DNA of 64,000 nt from Moorena sp. SS36440bin_2 (GTDB taxonomy: Bacteria > Cyanobacteriota > Cyanobacteriia > Cyanobacteriales > Coleofasciculaceae): contig WTKN01000066.1 in NCBI GenBank assembly GCA_011524395.1, forward strand, positions 1 to 64,000, read 5' to 3'. The notes under the pieces are model-generated. The model worked only from the letters and a program-made list of their open reading frames with translations. It did no database searches and had not been told where the DNA came from. Position numbers and translations under genes: made by a program. Of this stretch, positions 20,511 to 57,543 are shown piece after piece. Within the stretch, counting starts at the first letter, position 1; each line of letters begins with the position of its first letter.

Positions 20511-20700
20511 ATCATACCTAAAATAGGCAAAATCGTAAATATTTACTGGGTAATGGTTTCGGCCAATATATTTTACTAAATATATAAGATGGCTATACTT
20601 GTGACAAGTCAGAGGCTTAAAACCTAGGTATTGTAAAGATAACACTTATGAAAATTACCACAAGATATTTAGGGATGCTATAGTCAAATTTATTAACAAA

Positions 20701-24934: not shown

Positions 24935-25047
24935 GTTTTATATTAAAAATATTGATGATAAATATTTTTTAGCAATTAGAAACATATATAGCAGTTCTCA
25001 ATTTGAGAACTGCTATAATAACTAATAAGTGTATCTGTCCAACAGAC

Positions 25048-26678: not shown

Positions 26679-26688
26679 TGACCACTTA

Positions 26689-33221: not shown

Positions 33222-33290
33222 CGGGTTTTTTGATTATACTCTAGTAATTATCAAGTTTATAATCTGGCTATCAAATTTATAAAAATAAAA

Positions 33291-34463: not shown

Positions 34464-34665
34464 TTTTTAAGCATTTTAGGAAATGATATGTCTGGGGAAT
34501 TTAATATATAATTTATCAATGGTTTAAGGGACTTTCGTTCTGGGTTAATGGGAGTAGGGAGTAGGAATGCGCCCCTGCATCGCTTGACAACAACAATATA
34601 AATACATCAACTATTTTGGTAAACGTGTATTGCGGATTGAACAATTATGAATGTGTTTAACCGAG

Positions 34666-35970
34666 TTACAAGTTAATCGTAGCCTCTACTTGTAAGTTGG
34701 TAAATGCTGCAACTCGTTGACTTTCTACGGAATCATCAATGCGGATTTTAACTTGCACCACTTTACGATCCGTATCTGCTCCAGGATTAACATCAAAAAC
34801 CTGTTGTCTGTCAATTTGGAAACCAATCTCAGCCACTGTTCCCTGTATTTCACTATCAAAAATAGTACTATAAATAGTAGATTTTTGACCCAGATAGACT
34901 TTGCTAATATCCGTTTCATGGACTTCTGCAATTACGTACATATTGTCGGTTTGACCTAGCTCAACAATTCCGTCAGTGCCAATAATTTCTCCAGATTTAG
35001 TGTTAACTTTCAGGACTTGTGCATCGATAGGAGAACGGATGTAGCTTAAATTCAATTCAGCTTGAGCGAGCTTGACAGCAGCGATCGCACTCTCAATTTC
35101 TCCCTGAGCTATTTGTACATCTACTGGACGAATCTCAGTAATACGGTTTAGATTGGCTTTAGCTTGAGTGATCTGTTCTTGACCAGTGTCCATAGTCCGT
35201 CGCAGAGTAGCTTTTCCTTCATTAATTTGTTCTTCAATGGTTTTCACAATTCGTTTCAGAGCAGCATTTGCTTCATTAATTTGCTCTTGAATCGTTTCCA
35301 CTTGCAGACGTTTACTATCAAAAAGAGAGGCGGAAATTGCACCTTCTTCATAGAGTTGTTGATTACGTTTATACTCTGCTTGAGCATTACGCAATTGGGC
35401 TTGTAAGCGAGCCACGGTTGCTTCCTGTGCCGCTACTTCCCATTGCAACTGAGCTCGTAAGCGAGCTAGGGTTGCTTCCTGTGCCGCCACTTCCCCTCGT
35501 AACTGAGCTTGTAAGCGAGCGATCGTTGCCTCTTGTGCCGAAATTTCTCCTGCCTGAGCCCCAGCTTTTACCTTGTCCAGACGAGCTTTCGCAACTTTAA
35601 CCTGTTGCTTAGCTTGTTCTAAAGTAGCAAAACGAAGAGCATAAGTGTCGAGCAGAGCAACGATTTGCCCTGCCTTAATCTTGTCTCCTTCCTTCACTAA
35701 AAGTTGTTCAACTCGGCTACCTCCTACAGAATTAGGGGCAGACAAACGAGTCACTCCTCCTTGAGGCTCTAGACGTCCAAGGGCAGTGATCCCAACTATG
35801 GGAATGCTATTTTCTGGGGAATTGGAATTTGATATAGAACCTTGACGTTTAGATTCAAATTGGGGTAAACCATAGAGATAAATCCCCCCAGTAGCTAAAG
35901 CCATAGCTGCTGATAAAATCAGATAGCGCTGACTTATAGGGTTTGTAAATGATTGACTTTCCTTATGCAC
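34666..35970 (-). CDS. devB: Periplasmic membrane-fusion protein, DevB type
   Basis: This 434-aa HlyD-like adaptor has an N-terminal membrane anchor (about 14-32), a lipoyl half (LLVKEGDKIKAGQIVALLDT), a very long coiled-coil hairpin (about 105-285), then the second lipoyl half (SYIRSPIDAQVLKVNTKSG) and a beta-barrel domain. The hairpin contains three near-identical units of AAQEATLARLRAQLQ type (about 141-195), which lengthen the coiled coil and look like recent tandem duplications. It should bridge DevCA to an outer-membrane TolC. It is the first gene of the minus-strand array. Confidence 0.9.
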   Translation of the reverse strand: MHKESQSFTNPISQRYLILSAAMALATGGIYLYGLPQFESKRQGSISNSNSPENSIPIVGITALGRLEPQGGVTRLSAPNSVGGSRVEQLLVKEGDKIKAGQIVALLDTYALRFATLEQAKQQVKVAKARLDKVKAGAQAGEISAQEATIARLQAQLRGEVAAQEATLARLRAQLQWEVAAQEATVARLQAQLRNAQAEYKRNQQLYEEGAISASLFDSKRLQVETIQEQINEANAALKRIVKTIEEQINEGKATLRRTMDTGQEQITQAKANLNRITEIRPVDVQIAQGEIESAIAAVKLAQAELNLSYIRSPIDAQVLKVNTKSGEIIGTDGIVELGQTDNMYVIAEVHETDISKVYLGQKSTIYSTIFDSEIQGTVAEIGFQIDRQQVFDVNPGADTDRKVVQVKIRIDDSVESQRVAAFTNLQVEATINL

Positions 35971-40739: not shown

Positions 40740-43700
40740 GTGGTTAAGAATCAGTCTATGTCTAATTCTAAACTTGACATGGCATTGGCCCAGCTCCAAG
40801 ACGACTTGGATAGCTTTGAAAAGAATCTGATCCAACGTATCCAAGGGAAAGACACGATGTCGGATAAATTCACAGAATTAAGCAATATAAACCAAAAACT
40901 GGCACAAACTCCTATCGCCATTATTGGCATGGCATCGCTTCTACCGAAAGCCAGAAATTTGCAGGAATACTGGACGAATATTCTTGAAAAAATCGACTGC
41001 ATTACTGATGTTCCTGCCTCCCACTGGAATGCAGACGACTACTACGATCCAGACCCCAGGGCACCGGACAAAACCTACTGCAAAAGAGGCGGATTTATCC
41101 CACATATCGATTTTAACCCGATGGAGTTTGGGCTCCCTCCGAATATCCTCGAAGTAACAGATGTTTCCCAGCTGTTAAGTCTAGTAGTGGCAAAGGAAGC
41201 GATCGCAGATGCCGGCTATGGCAAATCCCGGGAGTTTAACCGAGAGCGTACTGGGGTTATCCTAGGCTCGGCACTTGCAAAACAACTATCTACACCACTT
41301 TCAGTTAGATTGGAGTATCCGATTTGGGAGAAAGTTCTAAAAAGTAGTGGGTTATCGGATCAGGATACTAAAAAAATTGTCGAAAAGATAAAGCTAGCCT
41401 ATGTGCAGTGGAATGAAAATGCTTTTCCCGGGATGCTAGCTAATGTGATTGCTGGACGAATTGCCAACCGTCTAGATTTGGGGGGAACAAACTGTGTAGT
41501 GGATGCCGCCTGTGCTAGCTCATTAGGTGCTTTAAAAATGGCAATTAGTGAGCTGAGTGAGCATCGCGCTGACATGATGCTCACTGGAGGAGTTGACACC
41601 GATAACTCCCTTGCGGTCTATATGTGTTTCAGCAAAACCCCTGCCCTCTCCCCAAACCAGACTATTAAGCCTTTCGATGCTGAGTCGGATGGGATGATGC
41701 TGGGTGAAGGCATCGGAATCCTGGTACTCAAACGTCTGGAGGATGCTAAGCGAGATAATGACAGAATTTATGCTGTGATCAAAGGTATTGGCACCTCCAG
41801 TGATGGTCGATTTAAAAGCATTTACGCTCCTCGCCCAGAAGGACAAGCGAAAGCGTTGAAGCGTGCTTACGAAGATGCAGGTTTTTCTCCTACCAGTATT
41901 AGCCTGATTGAAGCACATGGTACAGGGACTAGGGCTGGGGATCCCAGTGAATTCCAGGCTCTAAAAGACGTTTTTAGTGAAAACAACCCCAAAAAGCAGT
42001 ATGTTGCTCTCGGTAGTGTTAAATCCCAGATTGGGCATACCAAAGCTGCGGCTGGTGCAGCTAGTCTAATCAAAACTGCCTTGGCTCTACACCACAAAAT
42101 CTTACCACCTACGATTAACATCACCAACCCCAACCCAGCACTGGATATTGATAATTCACCATTTTATTTGAATACTGAAACCCGACCCTGGATTCGCGCT
42201 GAAGGAGATGGGCCAAGGCGTGCTGGTGTGAGTTCCTTTGGCTTTGGTGGCACCAATTATCATGTTGTTCTGGAAGAATATGAACCCGAACATAATAATG
42301 CTTATCGTTTACACCACACTTCCGAGTCTATTCTCCTTTCTGCGCCAACACCGGAGCAATTGTTAGCTCGTTGTGAAGATACCTTACAAAAGTTGCAATT
42401 TAAAACTGGAGAGCAGCACTACCAGAAACTAATTGATAGCTGTAAAGTTGAAGAAATTCCGGTCACTGAAGCCAGAGTGGGATTTGTGGCGGATTCTCTA
42501 ATACAAGCTTGCAGATGCTTACAAACCACTATTAACTGGCTAAAAAAGAAACCACAAGCACAATCGTGGAATCATCCCCAAGGGATCTACTATCGTCAAA
42601 GTGCCATAGAGCTGAAAGGAAAAGTCGTTGCTCTATTTTCAGGGCAAGGTTCCCAGTATCTAGAAATGGGGCGGGAACTAGTGATGAATTTCCCTTGTTT
42701 GCGCGAGACCTATGGTTATATCGATAGTCTGTTCCTCAAGGATAGTTTGAAGCCCGTTTCAGAAACGGTTTTTCCTGCCCCTGTGTTTGATACAGCTCAA
42801 CGGCATATCCAGACTGAAGCACTGCAACGTACAAATTATTCTCAGCCAGCCATCGGAGCCTTCAGTGTTGGTCTTTATAAGATTCTGCAACAAGCAGGAT
42901 TTAAGCCTGATTTTATTGCTGGACACAGCTTTGGAGAACTCACTGCTCTCTGGGCTGCTGAAGTTTTGAGTGATCAGGATTACTTTTTCCTAGTTAAAGC
43001 TAGAGGCCAGGCCATGGCAACCCCAGATGATCCAAATTTTGATCCGGGAGCCATGTTGGCGGTGAACGAAGACTTTAATCGAGTCCAAGAGGTTATTGAT
43101 AGTTTTCCTCAAGTTACCATTGCCAATTTCAATTCCAATTGCCAAGTAGTCTTAGCCGGTTCAACAGCAGAAATTGCGAAGGTACAGCAAGTATTTACTG
43201 AAAAAGGGTATTCTGCTACTTTGCTGCCAGTTTCCGCTGCCTTCCATACTCCTCTGATTGGACATGCCCAAAAAGCGTTTGCTCAAGCCACTGAAGCAGT
43301 TACGTTCAAAAAAGCAAAAATTCCTGTTTATACCAATGTGACTGGGGAGCGTTATCCCACTGAACCCCAAGACATTAAAAACATTTTGGGAGTACATTCA
43401 AGCAAGTCAGTACTGTTCAAGCAGGAAATCGAAACTATTTACAATGCAGGGGGGTATTGCTTTGTTGAGTTTGGACCTCGGAGCATCCTGACCCACTTAG
43501 TAAAGGATATCCTTGGTGATAAACCCCATGTCGCCGTAGCCTTAAACGCGAGTCGTCAACAGGATAGCGATCGCCAATTGCGTCAAGCAGTTATGCAGTT
43601 GCGCGTGGCAGGTTTGCCGTTGAAAAACCTCGACCCCTACCAAATTGAGCCTCCAGCACCCAAGACTGAGGAGAAAAAAGTCCTCAAGTACCGGTTAAAT

Positions 43701-46700
43701 TGCGCTAATTATGTGTCAGAAAAGACGAAAAAGGCTTTTGAACAGGCTTTGCAGGATGGACATCAAGTGACATCTCTTGGTCAGGATAATGGGGCAAGTC
43801 ATGGATCGAAAGTTGAAACTCAACAGACACAAATGGTCAGCAATGGAAATGGGTCTAGCCAGAGCAATGGTCACACAGCTAAGGCCAATGATCAGGGGAG
43901 TTCTTCAACTAAGCTTGTCACTCCGAAACCATTGGTGAGTAATGGAAATGGGTCTAGCCAGAGCAATGGTCACACCCCTAAGGCCAATGATCAACGGAGT
44001 TCTTCAACTAAGTTTGTCACTGCGAAACCATTGGTGAGTAATGGAAATCCGTCTAGCCAGAGCAATGGTCACACCGCTAAGGCCAATTATCAACGGAGTT
44101 CTTCAACTAAGTTTGTCACTGCGAAACCATTGGTGAGTAATGGAAATGGCTCTAGCCAGAGCAATGGTCACACCGCTAAGGCCAATTATCAGGGAAGTTC
44201 TTCAACTAAGCTTGTCACTGCGAAACCATTGGTGAGTAATGGAAATGGCTCTAGCCAGAGCAATGGTCACACCGCTAAGGCCAATGATCAGGGGAGTTCT
44301 TCAACTAAGCTTGTGACTCGATCGACACCATTGGTGAGTAATGGAAATCCGTCTAGCCAGAACAATGGCTTCTGGGCGATCGCCCAGAAGCCAGGAAACA
44401 GGATTGCACTCTCCCCATTCATCCAGCCCACATCTCGGTTACGTCCCATGGAGACTTCTCAGACTAAACCAACATCAAATCCCACTGAACTTACCCAGAA
44501 GCCAAGTGAGCATCTTATGACCTCCTCTGGAAGTAGCACCAATCACAAGTCTGATGCTAAACCAGCACTAGCTCTTACTCAACCGGCTCTTGAATCGAAA
44601 ATGCCCTCAACACCAACCCTATCTCTAAATTCCCAACGTATTTTAGAGAGCTTAGAGCATAGCTTGAAGTTGTTTAGTCAGCATCAAGGTGAAACGTTAC
44701 ATGTTCACGGACAATATCTGAACAATCAGCTGGAATATGCCAAAACCTTTTTCCAACTGATGCAGCAGCAGCATTCCTTGTTTGGCAACAGCAACGGAAC
44801 TGATCAACAAGCGCAAACGAAGCAAGTTGTGATAAAGAGCTTAGAGCGCACTATGATGCAGTTTCACCAGCATCAAGGTCAGACTCTCAACGTCCATGAG
44901 CAATATTTAAACCATCAGCTAGAGTATACCAAGAACTTTTTCCAACTGGTAAAACAGCAGTATCAAGAGGTTCTCAAAGGTGAGGTTGTTGATCAACCAG
45001 GGCTAGAAGCTGGTAATGGTAATCAATTGCTGGGGAAGGAGTTAAACACACAAGCTACTTCTACAACGGTGACAACATCGGTTACTAGTGTTCAGGATAG
45101 TCTCAATAATTTACCATCCACTCCTAAACTGACTACAGAGACCAAAGAAACAAATAAGTTAGTAGAGCAGCAGGATAGCCAAACCTCTGACAATGGGCAA
45201 GTTGTCAACCAAGAGGAAACAGTTAAACCGAATCTCTCTGATAGCTCTAGTAACACAAGTGGATCTATAACTGTTCCTGCTGCTACCCTGGTGAAGGAGC
45301 CAGAGCCAGAGCCAGCTTTAAGCAATGTCTCAAAACCCGTTCAGGAAAGTTTAGAAACTGAAGTCAAGCTTGAGCCAACAGCAAAAGTAGCATCTTCACC
45401 ATCAGCAGCCACGGATATTAATGAGATTAGCCAAACTCTGCTAGATGTGGTTAGCGAGAAAACCGGCTATCCAGCGGAAATGTTAGAGCTGGATATGGAC
45501 ATGGAAGCGGATTTAGGGATTGACTCCATCAAACGGGTGGAAATTCTAGGTGCTTTGCAGGAGCTGAATCCTGATTGGCCTGAAGCTAATCCAGAGCAAC
45601 TTGGAGAACTGCGTACCCTTGGTCAAATCGTGGAGTACCTACAGTCCCATGCTTCCAAGGTTCTCCCTGTCGAAGCTGAAATAACAACTAACACCTCACC
45701 TGAGATAGAAACAATCCAATCTGAGTCAGTAGAGAGTAATGATGTTAAACCAGTTGTAGAAAATCCAGCCGTAGAAACTTCAACTATAGATGTTGAGGCC
45801 ATCAGTCAAACTCTGCTAGATGTGGTTAGCGAGAAAACCGGTTATCCAGCAGAAATGTTAGAGCTGGATATGGACATGGAAGCGGATTTAGGGATTGACT
45901 CCATCAAACGGGTTGAAATTCTAGGTGCTTTGCAGGAGATGAATTCTGATTTGCCTGAAGCCAATCCAGAGCAACTTGGAGAACTGCGTACCCTTGGTCA
46001 AATCGTGGAGTACTTACAGTCGCAGGCTTCCAAGGTTCTCCCTGTCGAACCTGAAATAACACCTAACACCTCAGCTGAGATAGAAACAATCGAATCTGAG
46101 TCAATCGAATCTGAGTCAATCGAATCTGAGTCAGTAGAGAGTAATGATGTTAAACCAGTTGTAGAAAATCAAGCCCTAAACACTTCAACACCATTAACAG
46201 CTATAGATGTTGAGGCCATCAGTCAAACTTTGCTAGATGTGGTTAGCGAGAAAACCGGCTATCCAGCGGAAATGTTAGAGCTGGATATGGACATGGAAGC
46301 GGATTTAGGGATTGACTCCATCAAACGGGTGGAAATCCTAGGCGCTCTACAGGAGATGAGCCCTGATTTGCCTGAAGCGAATCCAGAGCAACTTGGAGAA
46401 CTGCGCACTCTTGGTCAAATTGTTGAGTATCTTCAACAGCAGACAGTTACGACTGAAAAAAAAGAGTTCCAGAACCAGCCTTTTAATGAGCAACTTGACC
46501 TAGATCATAATATTCCACGCTGTTTAGTAAAACTGAAAGCTCTGCCTGATCCAGATAGTTTGGATTTCACTTTACCTGACAAACATATTGTTTTGTTAAC
46601 CGATGATGGTTCACTAACTACATCGAAACTGGCTCAATCCCTAACAGAGCGTGACTGGAAAGTGGTGGTCTTAAGTTTTCCCCAATCCCTAATTGCAGAA

Positions 46701-47234
46701 CAAGCATCTTTACCCAAAGCAGTTAGTCGTATTGTGTTGAACGATTTGAGTGAGGAGCATTTGAAACAACAATTGGCAGCCATTACTGCTAACTATGGTT
46801 CCGTTGGTGCATTCATTCATCTCAATCCTGCGATTCAGATCCAGCCCAATCATGGGATTGGCTTTCTTGAGCTAGAAAAAGCTCTTCTTAAGCAGGTTTT
46901 TTTGATTGCCAAACATCTCAAACCATCACTGAATGAAGCCGCACGTCAAGGACGGAGTTGTTTCATGACTGTTGCTCGTCTTGATGGAGCGTTTGGTTTA
47001 GCACAAAACGTGAACTTTGGTGCAATTGGTGCAGGTCTATTTGGATTGACTAAAACCCTCAACCTTGAATGGGAATCGGTATTTTGCCGGGGCATTGACC
47101 TAAGTCCTGACCTAAATGCTGAGGAGTCGGCTGAGTATATCATGGCTGAACTTCATGATCCCAACCGTTATATTGCCGAAGTTGGATATAGTTCACAGGG
47201 GCGAGTCACCCTGGGTACTGAACAATCTATCTGA
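40740..47234 (+). CDS. hglE: Hgl/Pfa-type lipid synthase: KS-AT-ACP-ACP-ACP-KR structural half
   Basis: This 2164-aa iterative synthase numbers from a GTG; an ATG six codons on (40758) is equally plausible. KS (about 57-515) has Cys258 (VDAACASS), His393 (EAHGTGTRAGDP) and His433 (QIGHTKAAAG). AT (about 628-960) has Ser730 in GHSFGE. A long linker contains 33-aa repeats (about 1035-1210) and two related 45-aa helical repeats (about 1300-1405). Three nearly identical ACPs carry the arm on Ser1596, Ser1721 and Ser1860 (each GIDSIKRVEILGALQE). The C-terminal 250 aa are the non-catalytic half of a ketoreductase, ending GRVTLGTEQSI. The KS resembles HglE of heterocyst glycolipid synthesis and PfaA of PUFA synthases. 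The catalytic KR half is in the next gene. Confidence 0.92.
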   Translation: MVKNQSMSNSKLDMALAQLQDDLDSFEKNLIQRIQGKDTMSDKFTELSNINQKLAQTPIAIIGMASLLPKARNLQEYWTNILEKIDCITDVPASHWNADDYYDPDPRAPDKTYCKRGGFIPHIDFNPMEFGLPPNILEVTDVSQLLSLVVAKEAIADAGYGKSREFNRERTGVILGSALAKQLSTPLSVRLEYPIWEKVLKSSGLSDQDTKKIVEKIKLAYVQWNENAFPGMLANVIAGRIANRLDLGGTNCVVDAACASSLGALKMAISELSEHRADMMLTGGVDTDNSLAVYMCFSKTPALSPNQTIKPFDAESDGMMLGEGIGILVLKRLEDAKRDNDRIYAVIKGIGTSSDGRFKSIYAPRPEGQAKALKRAYEDAGFSPTSISLIEAHGTGTRAGDPSEFQALKDVFSENNPKKQYVALGSVKSQIGHTKAAAGAASLIKTALALHHKILPPTINITNPNPALDIDNSPFYLNTETRPWIRAEGDGPRRAGVSSFGFGGTNYHVVLEEYEPEHNNAYRLHHTSESILLSAPTPEQLLARCEDTLQKLQFKTGEQHYQKLIDSCKVEEIPVTEARVGFVADSLIQACRCLQTTINWLKKKPQAQSWNHPQGIYYRQSAIELKGKVVALFSGQGSQYLEMGRELVMNFPCLRETYGYIDSLFLKDSLKPVSETVFPAPVFDTAQRHIQTEALQRTNYSQPAIGAFSVGLYKILQQAGFKPDFIAGHSFGELTALWAAEVLSDQDYFFLVKARGQAMATPDDPNFDPGAMLAVNEDFNRVQEVIDSFPQVTIANFNSNCQVVLAGSTAEIAKVQQVFTEKGYSATLLPVSAAFHTPLIGHAQKAFAQATEAVTFKKAKIPVYTNVTGERYPTEPQDIKNILGVHSSKSVLFKQEIETIYNAGGYCFVEFGPRSILTHLVKDILGDKPHVAVALNASRQQDSDRQLRQAVMQLRVAGLPLKNLDPYQIEPPAPKTEEKKVLKYRLNCANYVSEKTKKAFEQALQDGHQVTSLGQDNGASHGSKVETQQTQMVSNGNGSSQSNGHTAKANDQGSSSTKLVTPKPLVSNGNGSSQSNGHTPKANDQRSSSTKFVTAKPLVSNGNPSSQSNGHTAKANYQRSSSTKFVTAKPLVSNGNGSSQSNGHTAKANYQGSSSTKLVTAKPLVSNGNGSSQSNGHTAKANDQGSSSTKLVTRSTPLVSNGNPSSQNNGFWAIAQKPGNRIALSPFIQPTSRLRPMETSQTKPTSNPTELTQKPSEHLMTSSGSSTNHKSDAKPALALTQPALESKMPSTPTLSLNSQRILESLEHSLKLFSQHQGETLHVHGQYLNNQLEYAKTFFQLMQQQHSLFGNSNGTDQQAQTKQVVIKSLERTMMQFHQHQGQTLNVHEQYLNHQLEYTKNFFQLVKQQYQEVLKGEVVDQPGLEAGNGNQLLGKELNTQATSTTVTTSVTSVQDSLNNLPSTPKLTTETKETNKLVEQQDSQTSDNGQVVNQEETVKPNLSDSSSNTSGSITVPAATLVKEPEPEPALSNVSKPVQESLETEVKLEPTAKVASSPSAATDINEISQTLLDVVSEKTGYPAEMLELDMDMEADLGIDSIKRVEILGALQELNPDWPEANPEQLGELRTLGQIVEYLQSHASKVLPVEAEITTNTSPEIETIQSESVESNDVKPVVENPAVETSTIDVEAISQTLLDVVSEKTGYPAEMLELDMDMEADLGIDSIKRVEILGALQEMNSDLPEANPEQLGELRTLGQIVEYLQSQASKVLPVEPEITPNTSAEIETIESESIESESIESESVESNDVKPVVENQALNTSTPLTAIDVEAISQTLLDVVSEKTGYPAEMLELDMDMEADLGIDSIKRVEILGALQEMSPDLPEANPEQLGELRTLGQIVEYLQQQTVTTEKKEFQNQPFNEQLDLDHNIPRCLVKLKALPDPDSLDFTLPDKHIVLLTDDGSLTTSKLAQSLTERDWKVVVLSFPQSLIAEQASLPKAVSRIVLNDLSEEHLKQQLAAITANYGSVGAFIHLNPAIQIQPNHGIGFLELEKALLKQVFLIAKHLKPSLNEAARQGRSCFMTVARLDGAFGLAQNVNFGAIGAGLFGLTKTLNLEWESVFCRGIDLSPDLNAEESAEYIMAELHDPNRYIAEVGYSSQGRVTLGTEQSI
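43842..44372 (+). repeat. 99-bp tandem repeat, five to six copies, in the synthase linker
   Basis: Units begin at 43842, 43941, 44040, 44139, 44238 and 44340 (period 99, last step 102). Each encodes a Ser/Asn/Gly-rich unit around SNGNGSSQSNGHTAKAN. The period is a multiple of three, so copy changes keep frame. It forms a flexible spacer between AT and ACPs. Confidence 0.9.
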
Positions 47235-47845
47235 ATATAGTGTTTGAGTACTGAGTGCTCAGTTTGACTAGTGGCAAAAATTAGGGTGCATCTTACCAAA
47301 CTGGAACAATCAACCAACACGTTGAAGATGTTACGGCGGTTTGCATATAGCAATTCTACGACTTGTGAGGTACAAATCTCTGGGAGGGAGCAGGAAGCAG
47401 GGAGCAGGGAATAGGGAGCAGGGAGCAGGGAGCAGGGAGCAGGGAATAGGGAGCAGGGAATAGGGAGCAGGGAATAGGGAGCAGGGAATAGGGAATAGCG
47501 AAAAAATAATGTGTACCTCATAGCTACGATAAACGCTATCTTACGCTTTGTTAAATAGAATGAATAAGCTTTAAAGCAGGCAAGATAGCCCGTTATATAA
47601 GTGAAGTTTATTGTTTAAAATACGGCAAAAAATAATTAAAAGTTCCTGTTTTTAGGTTAATAAGTCAGTAATAATACGATAGGATTATTTGCTTAAACTG
47701 TCCTATCGTGTCTTATGGATGCTTGCTTTAAAAATGTGGCTTGCTCCCTAACCAAGTGCCACAAACTATAGTTTTACACCCCTGACAATAAAAGTTAAAA
47801 ATAGTAACTATTTATCAATTAAATATAAAATTATTGGAAAATTTT
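47235..47845. other. 600-bp spacer splitting the ketoreductase, with GGAGCAGG minisatellite
   Basis: The stretch between the two halves of the KR contains a GGGAGCAGGGAATAG-type array (about 47393-47500) and AT-rich DNA. It has no gene and no clear mobile-element ends. The TTG at 47834 and ATG at 47846 restart the frame. Confidence 0.7.
47393..47500. repeat. GGGAGCAGGGAATAG minisatellite
   Basis: Roughly a dozen copies of GGGAGCA and GGGAATA alternate. A sister array of GGGAGCAGGGACCAG occurs at about 55650-55750. Confidence 0.85.
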
Positions 47846-49567
47846 ATGTTCGAAACAGCTCAAATCAGTCAATCATCAGTGTTTCTTGTCAGTGGCGGAG
47901 CAAAAGGGATTACCGCTGAGTGCGTGATTCGGATAGCACAGCAGCAACCATGCAAATTTATTCTACTGGGTCGTTCATCAATCATGACAGATGAACCAGC
48001 TTGGGCAAAGGATTGTTTTCATGAATCTGAATTGAAAAAACGGATTATGGAAAATATCCTTGCCCAAGGACAGAAGCCTACCCCGATGGAAGTACAACGG
48101 ATATTTAAGACAATTGTTTCGAGTCGAGAAATTCACAAAACTCTCTTGGCAATTGAACAGGCAGGCGCTCAGGCAGACTATATTGATGTTGATGTAACCG
48201 ATGCTCTAGCCTTACAGGAAAAGGTGGCAACTGTCGTTGAGCGCATGGGTCCAATTACCGGTATTATCCACGGAGCAGGGGTTTTAGCGGATAAATTAAT
48301 TGAAAAGAAATCGGAACAAGATTTTGAGACCGTTTATGCTACCAAAGTAAAGGGTTTGGAAAATCTGCTGAGTTGCTTCAGCCCAGGTCAACTGGATTAT
48401 TTAGTTCTATTTTCTTCTGTAGCTGGTTTTTACGGAAATATCGGTCAGTCGGACTATGCGATCGCAAATGAAATTCTCAACAAATCAGCTCATCTGGTCA
48501 AGCAACACCATCCCTCCTGCCATGTGGTTGCCATAAATTGGGGACCTTGGGACAGTGGTATGGTGACTGCGGAACTAAAGAAGGCGTTTGCTAAGCGCAA
48601 CGTTGAAATTATTCCGATCCCAGTGGGGACAAACATGCTAGTTAAGGAACTGGATACTGCCAATCAGGAAACGGCGCAAGTAGTGATTGGCACTCCAATG
48701 GAACCGGTATTCCGGGAGTTAAACCCTGAGTTACAAACCTATCGTATTCGCCGCAAGTTGACACTGGAAGCTAATCCCTTTTTACAAGATCACGTGATTG
48801 GGGGTTATCCAGTATTGCCAGCTACTTGTTGCGTAGGATGGATTATTAATGCCTGTGAACAACTGTATCCGGGTTACAAATTCTTCAGTTACACAAATTT
48901 CAAGGTCTTGAAAGGGATTATTTTCAATGATAATCTCGCAAGCGAATATGTTCTAGATCTAAAAGAAATTGCTAAGAACGACGATTCAATAGAATTTGAA
49001 GGAAAGATCTGGACTAAAAAAGAACAAAGTAAAATTCCTTATCATGAGCATTATCGGGCTACTATTAAGCTAGTCAGAGAAATCCCTAGTGCTCCCACTT
49101 ATGAGGACGTTAACATTGAAGAAGATCCGAGAATTGCTGAACAGGTTGAATACCCATTATATCAAACTGGAAAATACACGTTATTTCATGGTCCTTCCTT
49201 TTGGGGAGTGAACAAGATATTGAATCTGACTCCTGAAAAAGTGACTACAGAATGTGCTTGGCAATCTATTAGTTATCGACAACAAGGACAGTTTAAAGTT
49301 CAAACTTTCAATCCCTATATTGCTGATCTTCAGACACACTCTAATGGGATTTTAATTTATGCTTTTCATCAAGAGCAGTTGTTACCTTCCCAATCGGAAA
49401 AGTTTGAACAATTTGCCATGATTCCACCCGACGAAACGTTTTATATATCTACCGAACTACGATCTAAAATCAGTAATAAAGTTCAGGCTGATATCATAGC
49501 CCATAATCGTGAAGGAAAAATGTACTCCCGTTGGGTTGGCTGGAAAGGAACAATTTTTCCTCTATAG
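47846..49567 (+). CDS. Ketoreductase catalytic half plus dehydratase (KR-DH)
   Basis: I start at ATG 47846 (573 aa); an upstream TTG adds four residues. Residues about 8-270 are the NADPH-binding catalytic KR half: FLVSGGAKGITAECVIRIAQ, the catalytic Ser/Tyr/Asn set in LFSSVAGFYGNIGQSDYAIANEIL, and INWGPWDSGMV. From about 310 on comes a PUFA-synthase-type double-hotdog dehydratase with catalytic His316 (DHVIGGYPVLPATCC) and a second hotdog half (PLYQTGKYTLFHGPSFWG). In PfaA-type proteins the KR halves are one polypeptide; here the break falls exactly between them. It must act with the product of the upstream gene. Confidence 0.9.
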   Translation: MFETAQISQSSVFLVSGGAKGITAECVIRIAQQQPCKFILLGRSSIMTDEPAWAKDCFHESELKKRIMENILAQGQKPTPMEVQRIFKTIVSSREIHKTLLAIEQAGAQADYIDVDVTDALALQEKVATVVERMGPITGIIHGAGVLADKLIEKKSEQDFETVYATKVKGLENLLSCFSPGQLDYLVLFSSVAGFYGNIGQSDYAIANEILNKSAHLVKQHHPSCHVVAINWGPWDSGMVTAELKKAFAKRNVEIIPIPVGTNMLVKELDTANQETAQVVIGTPMEPVFRELNPELQTYRIRRKLTLEANPFLQDHVIGGYPVLPATCCVGWIINACEQLYPGYKFFSYTNFKVLKGIIFNDNLASEYVLDLKEIAKNDDSIEFEGKIWTKKEQSKIPYHEHYRATIKLVREIPSAPTYEDVNIEEDPRIAEQVEYPLYQTGKYTLFHGPSFWGVNKILNLTPEKVTTECAWQSISYRQQGQFKVQTFNPYIADLQTHSNGILIYAFHQEQLLPSQSEKFEQFAMIPPDETFYISTELRSKISNKVQADIIAHNREGKMYSRWVGWKGTIFPL

Positions 49568-49768: not shown

Positions 49769-52700
49769 ATGAATAAAATAGCAATAATTGGATTTTCTTG
49801 CCTTTTTCCAGATGCCAAAAATCCAGAAGAATTCTGGAATAATCTGATTAACGGAAAAGATTCAACTTCAGTATTAAGTGAGGATGACATAGGACTTGAC
49901 CCGGCAATTTTTTTTAATCCATTAAAAAATCAACCGGATAAAACATACTCCTTAAGGGGAGGATATATCCGAGATTTTACGTTTGATGCCACTGGATACA
50001 ACTTGCCTTCAGAAGTCCTTGAAGGGTTAGATCCTCTCTTCCAAGGGTGCCTGTATGTTACCAAACAAGCACTGCAACATAGTAATTATTTGAGCAATGA
50101 CAGGGTGCTGTCAAAGTCGGGTGTAATTCTTGGTAATGTCTCAACCCTTACTCAACTCTCGAATCAACTATTTATATCGATTTATGAGCAGACCATTGAA
50201 GCTGCACTTCGGGAGCTTTTGCAGAATGAAAACTTCCAGTTAGCAAAATTACCGAAATCTGCCAAATTATCTCTGTATAATGGCATGAGCTATGGTGCGG
50301 TATCAGCCTTAGTCGCTCAAGCTTTTTCTCTATCCGATATTAACTATACCCTAGACTCTACCTGTTCCTCATCACTGTATGCAGTGAAATTGGCAAGTCA
50401 TTACCTACTCTCCCACAAAGCTGATTTGATGTTAGCGGGAGGGGTTAGTTATAGCGATCCAATTTTCGCTCGGATGCTATTTTCTGGTATTCACGCTTAC
50501 CCGGAAAATGATGTCAGCCGACCATTAGATCAATCTTCCCAAGGTCTAACCCCAGCAGATGGGATTGGTATGGTGGTGCTCAAGCGATACAGTGATGCGA
50601 TTCGAGATGGCGATCAAATTTATGGGACAATCTGTGGTAATGGATTATCTAATGATGGTCGGGGAAAGCACCTGCTGAGTCCGAACCCCCGAGGGCAAAT
50701 GTTAGCCTATGAACGAGCCTATACTGAGGCACAGATTAGTCCAAAGAGCATCGATTATTTAGAATGCCATGCTACTGGTACTCCCCTTGGTGATACCACT
50801 GAACTTGGCTCTGTTGATAGCTTCTTTGGTCCGCATCAAGCTTCTATGCTGGTGGGTTCTGTGAAGTCTAATCTGGGTCATTTGGTCACTGCTTCTGGCA
50901 TGGCTAGCATCATTAAAGTCATTTTGAGTATGTCTAAGGGTGTAATACCCCCGACCATTAATATCACGAATCCCCTCAGCTCTCCTAATAATGTGATTGC
51001 AGCGGACCAAGTGGTTCGAACTGCAACTCCCTGGCCGAGCAATAGACCGCTTAAACGGGCAGCCATTAATACCTTCGGTTTTGGCGGAAATAATGCTCAT
51101 TTGATTCTTGAGCAATCCACTCAGGTCGAAGAAATCCCTGATGTTGAAGCGGAACCCTCTACACCCGTGCCAGCTACTAAGATAGCGATTGTGGGCATGG
51201 ACAGCTTTTTTGGCTCCTGTGATGGTTTGGATCAGTTTGAGCGCAGTATTTATGATGGAACCCAGCATTTTATCCCCGTTCCTAACCAGCGCTGGAAGGG
51301 AATTGACGAGGAAGAGCAATTGCTCAAGGACTATGGCTTTACAGACGGTAAAGCACCCATAGGCGCTTACATCCAAGATTTTGACATTGACTCATTACGG
51401 TTTAAGATACCGCCCAATGAAGCAGACACACTCAACCCTAAACAACCGCTAATGCTTAAGGTAGCGGATCGTGCCTTGAAAGACGCAGGACTAAGTGAGG
51501 GGGAAAATGTGGCAGTGATTATCGCTGCAGAAAGCGAACTTACTGGTCACCAGCTTCAGGAGCGATGGCATTTGTCTTGGCAACTCAAAAAAAGTTTTGT
51601 TGACACGAATGAATCCTTAGTCTCTGAAGCTATCGATACCCTAGAAGGCATTGTTAAAGATAGCATGCACGAGCAGGCAAAAAGCAGTGACTATCTAGGT
51701 TACCTGGGTGCGATCACAGCCAGTCGTATTTCTGCTCTGTGGGATTTCAACGGACCTTCCTTCACCCTCGGTGTTGGGGAAAATTCCACCTTCAAAGCTC
51801 TAGAAACAGCACAACTATTACTCGCTGCTGGGGAGGTAGATGCGGTAGTTGTGGGTGCTGTTGACCTAGCTGGGGGCGCGGAAAATGTTTTGTTGCGAAA
51901 CCAATTGGCTAAGGTCAACACAGGAGTCAATACCCTAAGTTACGACCAAAACACTAATGGCTGGATGGTTGGTGAAGGGGCTGGCGCTGTGGTTTTAAAG
52001 CGTCTTGATACAGCCAAGCAAGACCAAGACCGTATTTATGCAGTGATTGATGCCATCAGTTTGGTACAACGCCGTAGCACATCAGACCAGGCCAATACTT
52101 TCCCGCAACCGCCTCTGGCTGAAACTGTTATACAAGCCTGTGAACAGGCTCATACTCAAGCAGAAATCACACCTGGGGATATTGGCTATTTAGAAGTGTT
52201 TGGTAGTGGAGTCGCTCAGGAGGATGAGGCAGAGATTCGCGGATTAACCCAAGCGTATCAAACTCCCAAGCCTGATTTAAGCTGTGCAATAGGTAGTGTC
52301 AAGGCAAATATTGGTCATACCTATGTTGCTTCAGGAATTGCTAGCTTAATCAAAACTGCACTCTGTGTCTATCACCGGTATATTCCAGGAACACCTCAAT
52401 GGACTGCTCCTAAAATGCCCGAGGTTTGGCAAGGTAGTCCATTTTATGTGGCAAGTGCATCAAGACCTTGGCTTTTACCACCAGAGAGCACTAAACGAGT
52501 AGCAGCAATTAACGGTATGGGACTGGAGGGGACTTATGCCCATATAGTTTTGTCAGAGGAACAGAGTCAGTGCGATCGCAAGAGCAGCTATTTGGAACAA
52601 ACACCGTTTTATCTGTTTCCCATTGCTGCTGATGGTCAATCGGAGTTATTCGAGCAGCTGCATAATTTAGAACAAACTATCGAAAATTGTGTTTCTCTAT

Positions 52701-54520
52701 CTACTGCTGCTCGCCAAACCTTTGCCACGTTTAAAAAACGTTCTCAGGCCACTTATACCCTAGCAATTCTGGGACACAACAACGATGAATTAAAACGAGA
52801 GATCCAGCGTGCAATTAAGGGGATTCCCAAGGCTTTTGATACAGGTAAAGACTGGCAAACCCCTGTGGGAAGCTATTTTACAGCTAAACCACTGGCTAAA
52901 CGAGGTACCGTTGCATTTGTTTATCCCGGTGCTTTCAATTCCTATATCGGACTAGGTCAGAATATTTTTCGACTGTTTCCCAAAGTCTACAACGAGGCAG
53001 ATCAACATATCACCAATATCGCTTTGCTCCTGAGGGAAAAACTTTTTTATCCAAGGAGCTTAAATGCCTTATCCAGAAAGCAACTGGAAGTCCTTGAACA
53101 GCGACTGTTAGATGATTCCCATAGCATGCTCACATCTGGAATTTGCTTTGTTAGAATCTTGACCATCATCATGAGGGATTATTTCAAAGTTCAGCCTGAA
53201 TCTACCTTTGGGTACAGCCTAGGGGAACTTAGTATGATGATTGGTCAGTCAGTCTGGACTAACTATGAAGAGGCGATCGATGGCTTAAGCTCCTCTGAGA
53301 TATTTCGCAAAAGACTATCTGGTCCTAAAAACGCAGTTCGCGACTATTGGGGATTACCCCAAGGCAACGATGATCAGCACAAACAAATTTGGAGTACCTA
53401 TGTTCTGATCACTCCGGTAGCCCAAGTTGTGGAATATCTCAAACATGAGAATCGGGTCTATCTTACTCATATCAATACGCCAAAAGAAGTGGTAATTGCT
53501 GGTGATCCTCAAGCTTGTCGGAGGCTGATTGACACTCTCAAATGCGATGCCTTCCGTGCTCCTGCCGATGATGTACTTCATTGTGACGCCATGGCTTCTG
53601 AATACCATGAACTTGCCAGACTCACCAGTTTACCTATCGGCAACCAACCAGAGACTATTTTTTATTCTGCAGCCGACTACAAACCCATTACCCTTGAAAG
53701 CCATGCCATTGGCCATGCTATCGCCAAGGGTCTTTGTCAGCCCCTCGATTTTCCTCGGCTAATTAACCAAGTCTACGACAATGGAGCCAAGATCTTTGTG
53801 GAGATAGGCGCTGGCAGTACTTGTTCTAGATGGATTCGTGAAAACCTCAAGGATAAGGAAAATGTCACCGTTTCCCTCAATAAAAGAGGTTCAAATGACC
53901 ATACCTCTATTGTCAAAGCCTTGGCCAAGCTAGTTAGTCATCAAGTCTCTCTGGATTTGTCTGCGCTGTATACTCAGGAAGCAGAAAATGCGGGTCAGCG
54001 GCGCTCAATGGTTAAAACCATAACCTTGGGTGGGAGCCGGATTAAGTCCAGCATTTTGAGCAATACTAACCAGGAAATTGCTGAAACTTTATCGTCAAAT
54101 GTCTTAATTCATAAGACTTGGGAACAGCCACAAACTTTACCCAATTTTGAAGCATCTGAACCCATAACTTCATCAAACTTTCAAAGTACTGTCCTAAACG
54201 ATGAAAATAGTGATAAGTGTGCTTTAAATTACAGCCTTGCAAGCACTAAAAAAATAAACTATGGCCAGGCTATTAAAATCCCCCTAGAGAATAAAAAATA
54301 CAGTCTAGAATTAGACAAAGAAAGTAATAATTTTGGCCTGGAAGTAACCCTAAGCGAATTACACAAGACTCAGTATAAAAACCTGAGTTATAATACATCT
54401 CGCATCACCAAAAACCATTCTGCTTTTTTAAGGAATCAAGAAGAATCCTTGAAGCAAATTGGTGACATTATTCAGCACCAAGTAACGTTTTCAAAGCAGT
54501 TACTTGATTCTGAATCATAA
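49769..54520 (+). CDS. KS-chain length factor-acyltransferase (PfaC N-terminus plus PfaB-like)
   Basis: In this 1583-aa protein the KS (1-455) has Cys199 (DSTCSSSLYAVK), His334 (ECHATGTPLGD) and a later NLGHLVTASG. A chain length factor (about 470-935) follows; its nucleophile is replaced by Glu671 (LGVGENSTFK) and its first histidine motif is lost (FGSGVAQED). An AT domain (about 1045-1390) has Ser1150 in GYSLGE rather than GHSxGE. The tail (about 1430-1583) is Asn/Ser-rich and ends in a helical motif, HSAFLRNQEESLKQIGDI. Pfa/Hgl systems use KS-CLF to set chain length. The dehydratases that follow KS-CLF in PfaC are absent; DH is supplied by the previous gene. Confidence 0.9.
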   Translation: MNKIAIIGFSCLFPDAKNPEEFWNNLINGKDSTSVLSEDDIGLDPAIFFNPLKNQPDKTYSLRGGYIRDFTFDATGYNLPSEVLEGLDPLFQGCLYVTKQALQHSNYLSNDRVLSKSGVILGNVSTLTQLSNQLFISIYEQTIEAALRELLQNENFQLAKLPKSAKLSLYNGMSYGAVSALVAQAFSLSDINYTLDSTCSSSLYAVKLASHYLLSHKADLMLAGGVSYSDPIFARMLFSGIHAYPENDVSRPLDQSSQGLTPADGIGMVVLKRYSDAIRDGDQIYGTICGNGLSNDGRGKHLLSPNPRGQMLAYERAYTEAQISPKSIDYLECHATGTPLGDTTELGSVDSFFGPHQASMLVGSVKSNLGHLVTASGMASIIKVILSMSKGVIPPTINITNPLSSPNNVIAADQVVRTATPWPSNRPLKRAAINTFGFGGNNAHLILEQSTQVEEIPDVEAEPSTPVPATKIAIVGMDSFFGSCDGLDQFERSIYDGTQHFIPVPNQRWKGIDEEEQLLKDYGFTDGKAPIGAYIQDFDIDSLRFKIPPNEADTLNPKQPLMLKVADRALKDAGLSEGENVAVIIAAESELTGHQLQERWHLSWQLKKSFVDTNESLVSEAIDTLEGIVKDSMHEQAKSSDYLGYLGAITASRISALWDFNGPSFTLGVGENSTFKALETAQLLLAAGEVDAVVVGAVDLAGGAENVLLRNQLAKVNTGVNTLSYDQNTNGWMVGEGAGAVVLKRLDTAKQDQDRIYAVIDAISLVQRRSTSDQANTFPQPPLAETVIQACEQAHTQAEITPGDIGYLEVFGSGVAQEDEAEIRGLTQAYQTPKPDLSCAIGSVKANIGHTYVASGIASLIKTALCVYHRYIPGTPQWTAPKMPEVWQGSPFYVASASRPWLLPPESTKRVAAINGMGLEGTYAHIVLSEEQSQCDRKSSYLEQTPFYLFPIAADGQSELFEQLHNLEQTIENCVSLSTAARQTFATFKKRSQATYTLAILGHNNDELKREIQRAIKGIPKAFDTGKDWQTPVGSYFTAKPLAKRGTVAFVYPGAFNSYIGLGQNIFRLFPKVYNEADQHITNIALLLREKLFYPRSLNALSRKQLEVLEQRLLDDSHSMLTSGICFVRILTIIMRDYFKVQPESTFGYSLGELSMMIGQSVWTNYEEAIDGLSSSEIFRKRLSGPKNAVRDYWGLPQGNDDQHKQIWSTYVLITPVAQVVEYLKHENRVYLTHINTPKEVVIAGDPQACRRLIDTLKCDAFRAPADDVLHCDAMASEYHELARLTSLPIGNQPETIFYSAADYKPITLESHAIGHAIAKGLCQPLDFPRLINQVYDNGAKIFVEIGAGSTCSRWIRENLKDKENVTVSLNKRGSNDHTSIVKALAKLVSHQVSLDLSALYTQEAENAGQRRSMVKTITLGGSRIKSSILSNTNQEIAETLSSNVLIHKTWEQPQTLPNFEASEPITSSNFQSTVLNDENSDKCALNYSLASTKKINYGQAIKIPLENKKYSLELDKESNNFGLEVTLSELHKTQYKNLSYNTSRITKNHSAFLRNQEESLKQIGDIIQHQVTFSKQLLDSES

Positions 54521-54537: not shown

Positions 54538-55416
54538 ATGAAGCGTAAAACACTATTTGTATTGACTTGGGTATCTACCATCGTTCTAATTCTATGCTGG
54601 GTGTTACCTACAAATGCCTTCAACGAGTTCTACCGCAACGGACTCAGAGGACACAGTACCTTTCATTACGAATTTACTCGCACCTTAATGCGGGGAGCGG
54701 GTTTCTCGCCAGAATTGGCAGAACAGATTGCAGTTACCAATCAAGCTGTGGACTCAGTTAACTTTACAGGTTACACCGGCACTAACGTGCGTCTCAGGAA
54801 AACCCTTCGTCAGGGTCAGTACAGTAAATACTGGCACTTTCCCCGACGGGGTTGCAATGATTCATTCGGTGTGTCCTATCCCACTGAGGCCAGCGAATGC
54901 AACACTTGCAACTACTTCACCGACAGTTCCGACTCCTGTCCAAGGGGAATCCCAGAGTTAAAGACCATGGACCAGTGGGCTCTTTACGGCAATTCTGACG
55001 ATCTGCTGGTAACGCCTAAATACTCTTTGAATCGTCGGAGATTCAAAACTGTACCGGCAAGCTCTATCACGGCTTTAGCGATTTTTCTCCATTCCCTTGC
55101 TGATTCCTATTCCCATGAAGCCTGTATGGAAAGCATGCAGCTGCGGGAGCACAAACCATCTCCTGCAGAGTGCAATGTCTTGCTCTGGCATCTGGATTTA
55201 GAGTTTGGTGGTGGTGATGCAGGTGTGCCCTATACCAAAAATGCTGGTCGTGCTGTCTTTAAGGCGGCCGTACAGTATATAGCCCAGAACCGAGAAGGTG
55301 GTGATCAGCTGTGGAGCTTTGATGAGGCGAACCACTTTATTGAGAAGTTTGCTGAAATCGAATCTCCTGATGAGCGTGCCCAATTTGCTATAGACACCTA
55401 CAATAATCTCTTATAA
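54538..55416 (+). CDS. Secreted zinc phospholipase C / P1-nuclease-like protein
   Basis: This 292-aa protein begins 17 bases after the KS-CLF-AT stop, so it is almost certainly co-transcribed with the synthase. A signal peptide covers about 1-27 (KRK, hydrophobic core, PTNA). The mature part is helical with spaced metal ligands: His39 and His43 (GHSTFHYEF), His185-x3-Asp189-x3-His193 (HSLADSYSHE) and His218-x3-Glu222 (HLDLE). These resemble the trinuclear zinc site of bacterial phospholipase C and P1 nuclease. Four cysteines (about 106-134) could form disulfides. I do not know the exact family. An extracytoplasmic hydrolase acting on the lipid product or on its acceptor is the working idea; a catalytic role is unproven. 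Confidence 0.6.
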   Translation: MKRKTLFVLTWVSTIVLILCWVLPTNAFNEFYRNGLRGHSTFHYEFTRTLMRGAGFSPELAEQIAVTNQAVDSVNFTGYTGTNVRLRKTLRQGQYSKYWHFPRRGCNDSFGVSYPTEASECNTCNYFTDSSDSCPRGIPELKTMDQWALYGNSDDLLVTPKYSLNRRRFKTVPASSITALAIFLHSLADSYSHEACMESMQLREHKPSPAECNVLLWHLDLEFGGGDAGVPYTKNAGRAVFKAAVQYIAQNREGGDQLWSFDEANHFIEKFAEIESPDERAQFAIDTYNNLL

Positions 55417-55524: not shown

Positions 55525-55649
55525 ATTACCAAAGTTTTGATAGGTAAAGCGATTTGCAATTCAGTTAGGTAAAAACTTCTAGGTTTTTAGGAAGCAGCGA
55601 TGCAGCGCGGTCTTGGGGGTTTCCCCCATGAGCGACTGCATCAAGACGG

Positions 55650-55750
55650 GAGCAGGGAGCAGGGACCAGGGACCAGGGACCAGGGACCAGGGAGCGGGGA
55701 AGTGGGAAGTGGGAAGTGGGAAGTGGGAAGTGGGAAGTGGGAAGTGGGAA
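55650..55750. repeat. GGGACCA / GTGGGAA minisatellites
   Basis: An array of GGGAGCA and GGGACCA units (about 55650-55697) passes into about seven copies of AGTGGGA (55699-55750). The 432-base spacer (55417-55848) holds this, the hairpin at 55474, and otherwise AT-rich DNA with no gene. Confidence 0.85.
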
Positions 55751-55848: not shown

Positions 55849-57543
55849 ATGACTCAAACTAGCTCTAAACCAATAAAAGCTTTAGATAAAAATCTAAGTA
55901 AAAATAATAATGAAACTAATAAAATCGGATTTTTAAATTGTTTTTATGGTCAAAATCAAGGTTGGCAAGGGTCTTTGGATGGGATAGCATTTGATGATCG
56001 AGGCATTAAGGCTAAACTGCTAGATTTAGATAAATCCTGTTATATTGTTAGATCCCAAGGACAGATTGGCGTAACCCAAGAAGGGTACTGGTATCCTTCC
56101 GAAAATGGCAAAAGCTCTCAAATAGAACTGCTGATGGCAGTTCCACCAATACAAATTCAACAGTTAGGCGATCCCAGTTTTTTATCCTTTCATGGGGTAA
56201 AATCTGCCTATGTTACTGGAGCGATGGCTGGTGGAATTGCATCCGAGGAAATGGTCATTGCTCTCGGCAAAGAGAAAATTTTGAGTTCATTTGGTGCTGG
56301 GGGATTAAGTCCTTCCCGCCTGGAAGCAGCTATTAAACGTATTCAACAAGCCTTACCCCAAGGTCCCTACGCCTTTAATTTAATTCATAGTCCCAGTGAA
56401 CCTGCCATTGAACGCCATGCTGTTGATCTATTTATCAAATATGGTGTTCACACTGTAGAAGCGTCTGCATTTCTAGATTTAACTCCCAACATTGTTTATT
56501 ATCGAGCTGCTGGATTAGGACTGAATACAGCTAATCAAATCGAAATCAAAAACAAAGTTATTGCTAAAATTTCCAGAAGAGAAGTTGCTGTAAAATTTCT
56601 CCAGCCTGCTCCAAAACAAATCCTTAAAAAACTTGTTGAGCAGGGATTAATCAGTGAGCTACAGGCAACTTTGGCAGAAAAAGTTCCCATGGCAGACGAT
56701 ATCACCGTAGAAGCTGATTCAGGTGGTCATACAGATAATCGGTCTTTGGTTTGTCTGTTACCTTCTATCTTGGAATTGAGGGATGAAATTCAGGAAAAAT
56801 ATGGTTATCAAAACCCGATTCGAGTTGGAGCTGCTGGTGGTATTGGTACGCCACAATCAGCCTTAGCTGCTTTTATGATGGGTGCGGCTTATGTTATGAC
56901 TGGATCTATTAATCAGTCTTGCCTTGAAGCTGGAACATCTCAACATGCTAAGGAAGTGTTGGCTAAAGCTGATATGACTGATGTCACCATGGCTCCAGCA
57001 GCAGATATGTTTGAAATGGGGGTAAAACTTCAAGTCCTCAAAAAAGGCACCCTCTTCCCCCTACGGGCCCAGAAACTATTTGAGTTATATAGAAGCTATG
57101 ACTCGATTGAAGCTATTCCTATCGAGGAAAGAGAAAAACTGGAAAAACAAATTTTCAAGAGAAAAATCGAAGCTATCTGGGAGGATACAATAGCTTATAT
57201 ATCCAAACGAAATCCTGATAAAATAAAACAAGCTGCCAATAATCCTAAGGTAAAAATGGCTCTGATTTTTCGCTGGTACCTAGGATTGTCATCGCGTTGG
57301 TCCAAGTCAGGGGAGAACGGCAGAGAAATCGATTATCAGATTTGGTGCGGACCTGCAATGGGCAGCTTTAATAACTGGGTGCAAGGGTCTTACCTCGCTG
57401 CTCCAAATAATCGCAGTGTGGTTGATGTGGCTCACCACATCATGAATGGGGCTGCATTTTTACACCGAATACAGAGTTTAAAAATTCAAGGACTCCAAAT
57501 GCCAGATTACTACAGTCAGTATCGCCCAGTTCCTCTTTCCTAA
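55849..57543 (+). CDS. pfaD: PfaD-type enoyl reductase
   Basis: This 564-aa FMN-dependent TIM-barrel protein (2-nitropropane dioxygenase-like) reduces enoyl intermediates for the synthase in trans. Family signatures are plain: FHGVKSAYVTGAMAGGIASE near 120, GAGGLSPSRLEAAIKRIQ, HSPSEPAIERHAVDLFIKYG, the FMN-phosphate region RVGAAGGIGTPQSALAAFMM near 325, and VMTGSINQSCLEAGTS. Length fits PfaD. It follows the PLC-like gene by 432 bases and is followed by a diiron oxygenase. With PfaD present the chain can be partly or fully reduced, as in PUFA and heterocyst-type lipids. Confidence 0.93.
   Translation: MTQTSSKPIKALDKNLSKNNNETNKIGFLNCFYGQNQGWQGSLDGIAFDDRGIKAKLLDLDKSCYIVRSQGQIGVTQEGYWYPSENGKSSQIELLMAVPPIQIQQLGDPSFLSFHGVKSAYVTGAMAGGIASEEMVIALGKEKILSSFGAGGLSPSRLEAAIKRIQQALPQGPYAFNLIHSPSEPAIERHAVDLFIKYGVHTVEASAFLDLTPNIVYYRAAGLGLNTANQIEIKNKVIAKISRREVAVKFLQPAPKQILKKLVEQGLISELQATLAEKVPMADDITVEADSGGHTDNRSLVCLLPSILELRDEIQEKYGYQNPIRVGAAGGIGTPQSALAAFMMGAAYVMTGSINQSCLEAGTSQHAKEVLAKADMTDVTMAPAADMFEMGVKLQVLKKGTLFPLRAQKLFELYRSYDSIEAIPIEEREKLEKQIFKRKIEAIWEDTIAYISKRNPDKIKQAANNPKVKMALIFRWYLGLSSRWSKSGENGREIDYQIWCGPAMGSFNNWVQGSYLAAPNNRSVVDVAHHIMNGAAFLHRIQSLKIQGLQMPDYYSQYRPVPLS

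Follow-up and report, generated by a model that had tools for sequence, protein, structure and literature searches.

The stretch of DNA analyzed, referred to below as the window, comprises 64,000 nt of the cyanobacterium Moorena sp. SS36440bin_2 (assembly GCA_011524395.1, contig WTKN01000066.1, positions 1 to 64,000) and carries a lipid synthase cluster in which one ketoreductase (KR) of the polyketide synthase (PKS) type is divided between two neighboring genes. The structural half (KRs) closes the upstream gene, which also encodes ketosynthase (KS), acyltransferase (AT), and acyl carrier protein (ACP) domains, and the catalytic half (KRc) opens the downstream gene, which continues into a dehydratase (DH). 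In the comparisons, L-numbers denote loci and G-numbers denote genomes of a 388-genome sample of the cyanobacterial class; the two samples overlap. The split region contains the following features:

40740 to 47234, plus strand: hglE homologue with KS-AT, a repeat linker, three ACPs, and KRs (domain matches; order and naming by comparison with L015 and PMC8073705)
43834 to 44368, plus strand: 99-bp in-frame tandem repeat of 5.4 copies in the AT-ACP linker of hglE (Tandem Repeats Finder)
46434 to 47231, plus strand: KRs, given as the query range, with the conserved part from about 46508 (profile and structure comparison)
46456 to 46463, plus strand: run of 8 A at the ACP/KRs junction, in frame (..TEKKEF..), a proposed slippage site (junction comparison)
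47235 to 47845, plus strand: 611-nt spacer between the KR halves, scar of a lost acyltransferase gene (comparison with Moorena relatives)
47385 to 47502, plus strand: GGGAGCA/GGGAATA minisatellite, a heptamer array (Tandem Repeats Finder; absent in L002 and L095)
47556 to 47741, plus strand: decayed 3′ remnant of a PapA-type acyltransferase gene with in-frame stops (DNA and protein matches to L003/L002)
47846 to 49567, plus strand: hglG homologue with KRc and PKS dehydratase (domain matches, catalytic residues)

The upstream open reading frame (ORF1) encodes 2164 aa, ends in GRVTLGTEQSI, and is closed by a stop codon at 47232-47234. The downstream frame (ORF2) reads MFETAQISQSSVFLVSGGAKGITAECV at its N-terminus when started from the ATG at 47846, a likelier start than the listed TTG at 47834; the proteins of relatives also start at this position, and the 611-nt spacer size agrees with this choice. 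A 266-residue stretch of the ORF1 tail matched positions 1711-1977 of the PfaA profile TIGR02813 (NCBIfam), and ORF2 matched positions 1991-2565 of the same profile; thus, the cut falls between stretches that are contiguous in PfaA. Profile searches also gave ORF2 a Pfam KR match (E value, 9.9e-39) and a PKS dehydratase match. These data bear out the anatomy described in the original prediction, namely that the upstream frame stops at the end of the KR structural half, that the next gene opens with the catalytic half, that the halves adjoin in PfaA, and that 611 bases with a GGGAGCA-type minisatellite lie between them. For a naturally one-piece homologue (L066), the corresponding region was modeled with AlphaFold2 (pLDDT 76.9, pTM 0.79, 21 alignment rows). 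The model could be aligned with complete PKS ketoreductases, including 5d2e, 4j1q, and 2fr0, across more than 500 columns, which supports the view that KRs and KRc together would make up one KR fold. In these type I enzymes the structural and catalytic halves likewise form one fold, but on a single polypeptide instead of two.

The KS-AT-ACP protein of the window is followed by genes for KRc-DH, KS-CLF (chain length factor), and a PfaD-type enoyl reductase, which is the order of an hgl island. The remaining members used in the comparison were as follows:

49769 to 54520, plus strand: hglC homologue with KS, second KS-like (CLF), and AT-like domains (domain matches)
55849 to 57543, plus strand: hglA, PfaD-type enoyl reductase (TIGR02814, 670.9 bits)
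32481 to 35970, minus strand: three genes, divergent from hglE, that served as export-type queries (DevA-, DevC-, and DevB-like; cluster comparison)

The last three are genes that we take to be DevA-, DevC-, and DevB-like, and the DevC/DevB-like pair had the same divergent placement upstream of hglE in most Nostocales loci compared. One report lists HglE and HglG as separate neighbors, with HglC, PfaD, HglB, a short-chain dehydrogenase/reductase (SDR), and HetI, in Nostoc ‘Peltigera membranacea cyanobiont’, and an unrelated gene between HglE and HglG in HT-58-2 (PMC8073705). In our comparison, this Nostoc locus (L015) had a split KR with a thioester reductase and an SDR downstream. Because the gene order matches that of hgl clusters, including L015 and the published list, ORF1 and ORF2 are identified as HglE (KS-AT-ACP-KRs) and HglG (KRc-DH) of a heterocyst-glycolipid-type lipid synthase related to polyunsaturated fatty acid (PUFA) synthases. 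An HglB thioester reductase and an HglT glycosyltransferase are expected near an hgl island; no HglB was recognized by eye among the listed ORFs downstream of hglA, an inspection that did not extend to a search of the remaining window or genome for either enzyme. The likeness to HglE/HglG, HglC, and HglA of heterocystous cyanobacteria covers gene order, domain content, the KR split at HglE|HglG, and the divergent DevB/DevC-like genes, whereas the Moorena cluster differs in its 99-bp repeat linker, a DUF6765 gene between hglC and hglA, an acyltransferase gene in the spacer (lost in the window), and three ACP matches in the window compared with two in Nostocales loci. To our knowledge, heterocyst formation is not known in Moorena. 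The counterpart protein of Moorena sp. SIO3H5 was 98% identical to that of the window. With PfaA of PUFA synthases (TIGR02813), the cluster shares the KS-AT-ACPn-KR-DH order and the matches of both halves to consecutive model parts, but the series is not one polypeptide, being interrupted by the stop codon at 47232-47234 and the 611-nt spacer; the PfaA-type outgroups L093 and L094 have a one-piece KR and no long A run at the ACP/KR junction.

The split was widespread. Among 80 named loci, 45 were split, 32 joined, and 3 unpaired (45/77 paired loci split), with four loci whose open frames exceeded 2,300 aa (L031, L034, L039, and L053) counted as joined with KS. The 388-genome sample gave 64 KRc-DH matches in 43 genomes, of which 34 were split, 27 joined, and 3 unpaired (34/61 paired). 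At 28 of the split places, the frame with KRs exceeded 800 codons and was assumed to include the ACPs; at the other 6, KRs had a short frame to itself. Of the joined places, 18 were in frames of more than 1,500 codons and 9 in shorter ones. Both a split and a joined cluster were present in 13 of the 43 genomes, and a split one only in 18. The gap between the halves ranged from approximately 10 to 1,700 nt (3.8 kb in L077), the spacers were unrelated, and the split also occurred in Chloroflexota. The same split beside unrelated spacers in most Hgl clusters (34/61 and 45/77) contradicts the idea that it is a novelty of this lineage; as for the proposed stable fission used by the Moorena lineage, the stability holds and the restriction to one lineage does not, given the spread across cyanobacteria and Chloroflexota. 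These comparisons indicate that the KR split is an old trait of the whole HglE/HglG family and not damage. The HglE|HglG gene boundary itself has already been named, and its cutting the KR at the structural/catalytic junction is the point stressed here.

Islands of the hgl-like type have been described as seven genes in five ORFs (PMC11804610); this fits a fusion of hglEA, hglF, and hglG, under our own mapping of the names. The product expected of an hgl island is a long-chain diol or keto-ol, or its glycoside. Two strains (L055 and L057) make C24 1,3-diols, and the authors of that work speculate that the hgl island makes them (PMC11804610); the KR was split in both islands in the present comparison. 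A second, distant hgl cluster with approximately 55% identity was observed in some Moorena (L098 in G002; L059 in Moorena sp. SIO3H5). In L077, from a Prochloraceae metagenome-assembled genome, hglG (6737-8448) is apparently frameshifted between residues 402 and 409, and 3.8 kb separate the KR halves.

The origin of the spacer in the window was traced through Moorena relatives. Its first 99 nt are common with L002 (M. bouillonii; 93%), and its last 290 nt align to L003 from within an acyltransferase gene onwards. L002 has a 1,542-nt spacer and G002 a 1,676-nt spacer, both with a complete ORF inside and no heptamer array; counted from its second start, the L002 ORF encodes 448 aa, with matches to PapA_C and Condensation. 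The remnant in the window matched L003 coding DNA (68% over 177 nt; E value, 3.8e-14), and its translation matched the last 33 residues of the L002 protein (E value, 1.8e-4), with stops inside the match. This coding match and these stops show that the acyltransferase gene was once present here and has been lost; its sole relative elsewhere in the genome of the window is distant (43%). The original prediction had also offered a break of the gene by repeat expansion. The array does occur both in the window and in the 602-nt spacer of its nearest relative L001 (Moorena sp. SIO3H5). However, the array-less relatives, which had been suggested as the place to look for one continuous gene, are split as well and hold a whole acyltransferase gene in the spacer (L002 and G002), and the split extends over cyanobacteria and Chloroflexota, leaving a recent break in the lineage of the window by minisatellite expansion next to no credibility. 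By this comparison, the minisatellite sits in the scar and did not bring about the split. Another GGGA-type heptamer array, at 55648-55750 between the DUF6765 gene and hglA, shows that such arrays also occur outside the KR spacer. Scanning of the spacer found two promoter-like sites (1.7 expected) and no terminator, and co-transcription of hglE and hglG is thus possible.

A phylogeny of 70 KRc-DH proteins, to which two PfaA-like outgroups were added, was used to examine the history of the split; 19 of 89 loci had been omitted beforehand because they were near repeats, incomplete, or uncertain. At least five switches between the split and joined states are needed in all, three of them within cyanobacteria. 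Joined Nostocales genes were nested within split lineages (forks 100/97 and 100/93), and for this reason the one-piece Nostocales genes look like re-fusions. Two points weigh against this reading: it hinges on how the tree is rooted and on outgroups with long branches, which may meet artificially, so that the deepest part is unsure, and a model with breaks and no re-joining would require approximately eight separate breaks on this tree (counted by eye). Heptamer repeats in the one-piece linkers were considered as proof of re-fusion. A 7-nt periodicity (p < 0.01) was present in 11/29 KR linkers of one-piece genes, but also in 6/16 ACP-KRs and 4/27 ACP-ACP linkers of the same genes, and the repeats were downgraded to suggestive.

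Active PKS ketoreductases carry a glycine motif and the residues K, S, Y, and N. The NADPH glycine motif and these catalytic residues were kept in 50/50 split and 36/36 joined sequences. Between the window and L002, dN/dS was 0.29 for KRs, 0.44 for KRc-DH, and 0.20 for KS-AT, and both KR halves are under purifying selection. The simplest and most likely reading is that the halves assemble in trans: KRs at the C-terminus of HglE and KRc at the N-terminus of HglG would form one ketoreductase, and KRs may also dock HglG beside the ACPs. FabG-type single-domain reductases, which lack KRs, give a precedent for a different arrangement, in which the catalytic half of HglG works alone and KRs is a relic without a role on HglE. 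We regard this as improbable: different families have retained KRs, with 38-67% identity to the window, and purifying selection acts on it even in pairs in which one or both copies are out of the ACP frame (dN/dS 0.164 for G132/G393 and 0.088 for G392/G400). Taken together, it is very likely that the HglE/HglG boundary is an old KR boundary bridged by assembly in trans, and that the Moorena lineage of the window lost an acyltransferase gene that relatives keep, the 611-base spacer being its leftover scar. Two points count against this explanation. The catalytic half might act alone in the manner of FabG, and adjacency is not strict, since another Moorena genome (G003) carries hglE on one contig and hglG on another, the latter beside the acyltransferase gene, which contains one TAA. 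A natural two-part KR could be of use for PKS engineering, and the boundary may also provide a docking device.

The split is thus real and ordinary for the HglE/HglG family, and the surprising part is the A-run junction just upstream of it. Over all loci, 83 ACP/KRs junctions were readable (three more had no ACP in reach). At least 8 A were present in 57 of them and 10 A in 34; ACP and KRs were in different frames in 13, and all 13 had a run of 8-10 A. From the 388-genome sample, 63 of 64 fetched regions were readable (66 KRs places minus the window’s own and a second copy piece of G286), with at least 8 A at 44 of the 63 junctions; 15 were out of frame (12 by -1 and 3 by +1), again with 8-10 A in 15/15. 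The remaining coding DNA of the same loci had 39 runs of at least 8 A in 949,955 nt and none of 10 A. A run of this length is therefore conserved at the junction as expected of a slippage homopolymer (57/83 junctions compared with 39 runs per 950 kb elsewhere), in uncorrected counts that include related, non-independent sequences from the two overlapping samples. The residues beside the run vary while the run persists, and the in-frame or out-of-frame state changed at least eight times on the tree. In the nine loci with KRs in its own frame, the KRs frame and the last part of the ACP frame overlap, with 9-10 A inside the overlap in 9/9. The DNA just 3′ of the run is common to G132, which has A10 and is out of frame, and G110, which has A9 and is in frame. 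For HglE of the window, slippage by -1 would end translation 7 codons later (1914 residues) and slippage by +1 13 codons later (1920 residues), compared with 2164 residues without slippage. The median number of codons to a stop after the run was 1 in the -1 frame compared with 11 at controls, a difference driven by 1-codon stops (26/44, mostly in one Nostoc clade); in the +1 frame, it was 12 compared with 9 at control positions.

We lean toward the view that the A run acts as a switch. Transcriptional (or ribosomal) slippage between the last ACP and KRs would yield HglE with and without KRs, and, with KRs as the HglG dock, the ratio of long to short HglE would set the number of synthase chains able to recruit ketoreduction. 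The default would be lineage-specific, the long form in most Nostoc and Moorena and the short form in L057, L067, L098, G016, and others, a pattern known from dnaX, and the hglEA and hglF described as separate in the literature would be one gene read through the A run. The hglEA of PCC 7120 measures 4,626 bp (1541 aa; PMC11804610), and the computed slipped HglE products of four Nostoc-type loci (L004, L015, L017, and L020) measure 1536-1568 aa, an indirect agreement. Neither the window (z 0.36) nor L098 showed a stem-loop behind the run, and those in L015 (z -1.7) and L057 (z -1.6) were weak; on these four loci, ribosomal frameshifting with a stimulator structure is not favored. Frameshifting has also been followed in cassettes of other genes, with E. 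coli reportedly as the host. These cassettes gave 10, 40, and 63% frameshifting with 7, 9, and 11 A, respectively (PMC3711429). A close known parallel is dnaX of Thermus thermophilus and Chlorobium, with approximately 7-10 A, a near stop in one frame, and a long and a short product (PMC3711429, PMC5009743), but dnaX encodes a polymerase subunit and not a lipid synthase, and slippage in hglE is proposed here from sequence. Slippage in hglE was not mentioned in the literature searched, whose coverage left out most subscription papers.

Several findings weigh against a slippage switch. One codon phase is common to 53/57 runs, and a contribution at the protein level is possible; 26/83 junctions, mostly of joined Nostocales genes, have no run; and some split genes also lack it (L055 and the Chloroflexota loci L071, L073, L076, and L080). 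The shared phase would equally suit a lysine-rich linker with A-rich codons, or the run could be an assembly error, the frame changes then marking dead genes or separate, re-initiated ones. The window has no RNA structure after the run (z 0.36), a one-A difference between L074 and its sister L066 could be an error, and a start codon at the end of the run (ATG in L099/G132; TTG in G086 and in the b copies of G016, G036, and G075) permits re-initiation. Against this, the frame changes coincide with a run of 8-10 A in 13/13 and 15/15 cases, and 10-A runs occur at 34/83 junctions compared with none in 950 kb of other coding DNA. Several of the genomes concerned have megabase contigs (G132, G400, G016, and G036), the shifted KRs frames are under purifying selection (dN/dS 0.164 for G132/G393 and 0.088 for G392/G400), and 7 of the 9 loci with KRs in its own frame have no start codon before the conserved part of KRs. 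We therefore hold this second account to be possible but doubtful. If the run does slip, it would represent programmed recoding within a polyketide/lipid synthase that is related to the maker of the heterocyst envelope lipids of nitrogen-fixing cyanobacteria, and the ratio of reduced to unreduced positions in the lipids would become a testable function of run length.

Other arrangements were observed at this junction. In L098, an A9 run marks a frame change between ACP and KRs. L103 (G036) and L104 (G016) belong to a cyanobacterial group with GC-rich flanks, in which a single frame covers KRs-KRc-DH but does not match the frame of KS-AT-ACP; this group has runs of 8 or 10 A at the junction, with a stop directly 3′ of the run in some copies.

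Elsewhere in the window, the DUF6765-domain gene between hglC and hglA spans 54538-55416, and the match in L001 and L003 is limited to its first third. Three tandem glycosyltransferase-like genes (427-428 aa) lie at 17202-22517, with C-terminal halves near-identical by eye. A minus-strand set at 23819-32046, also named by eye, comprises a sulfotransferase-like gene, a methyltransferase, a type III PKS-like gene, and a KS-AT-ACP-thioesterase PKS.

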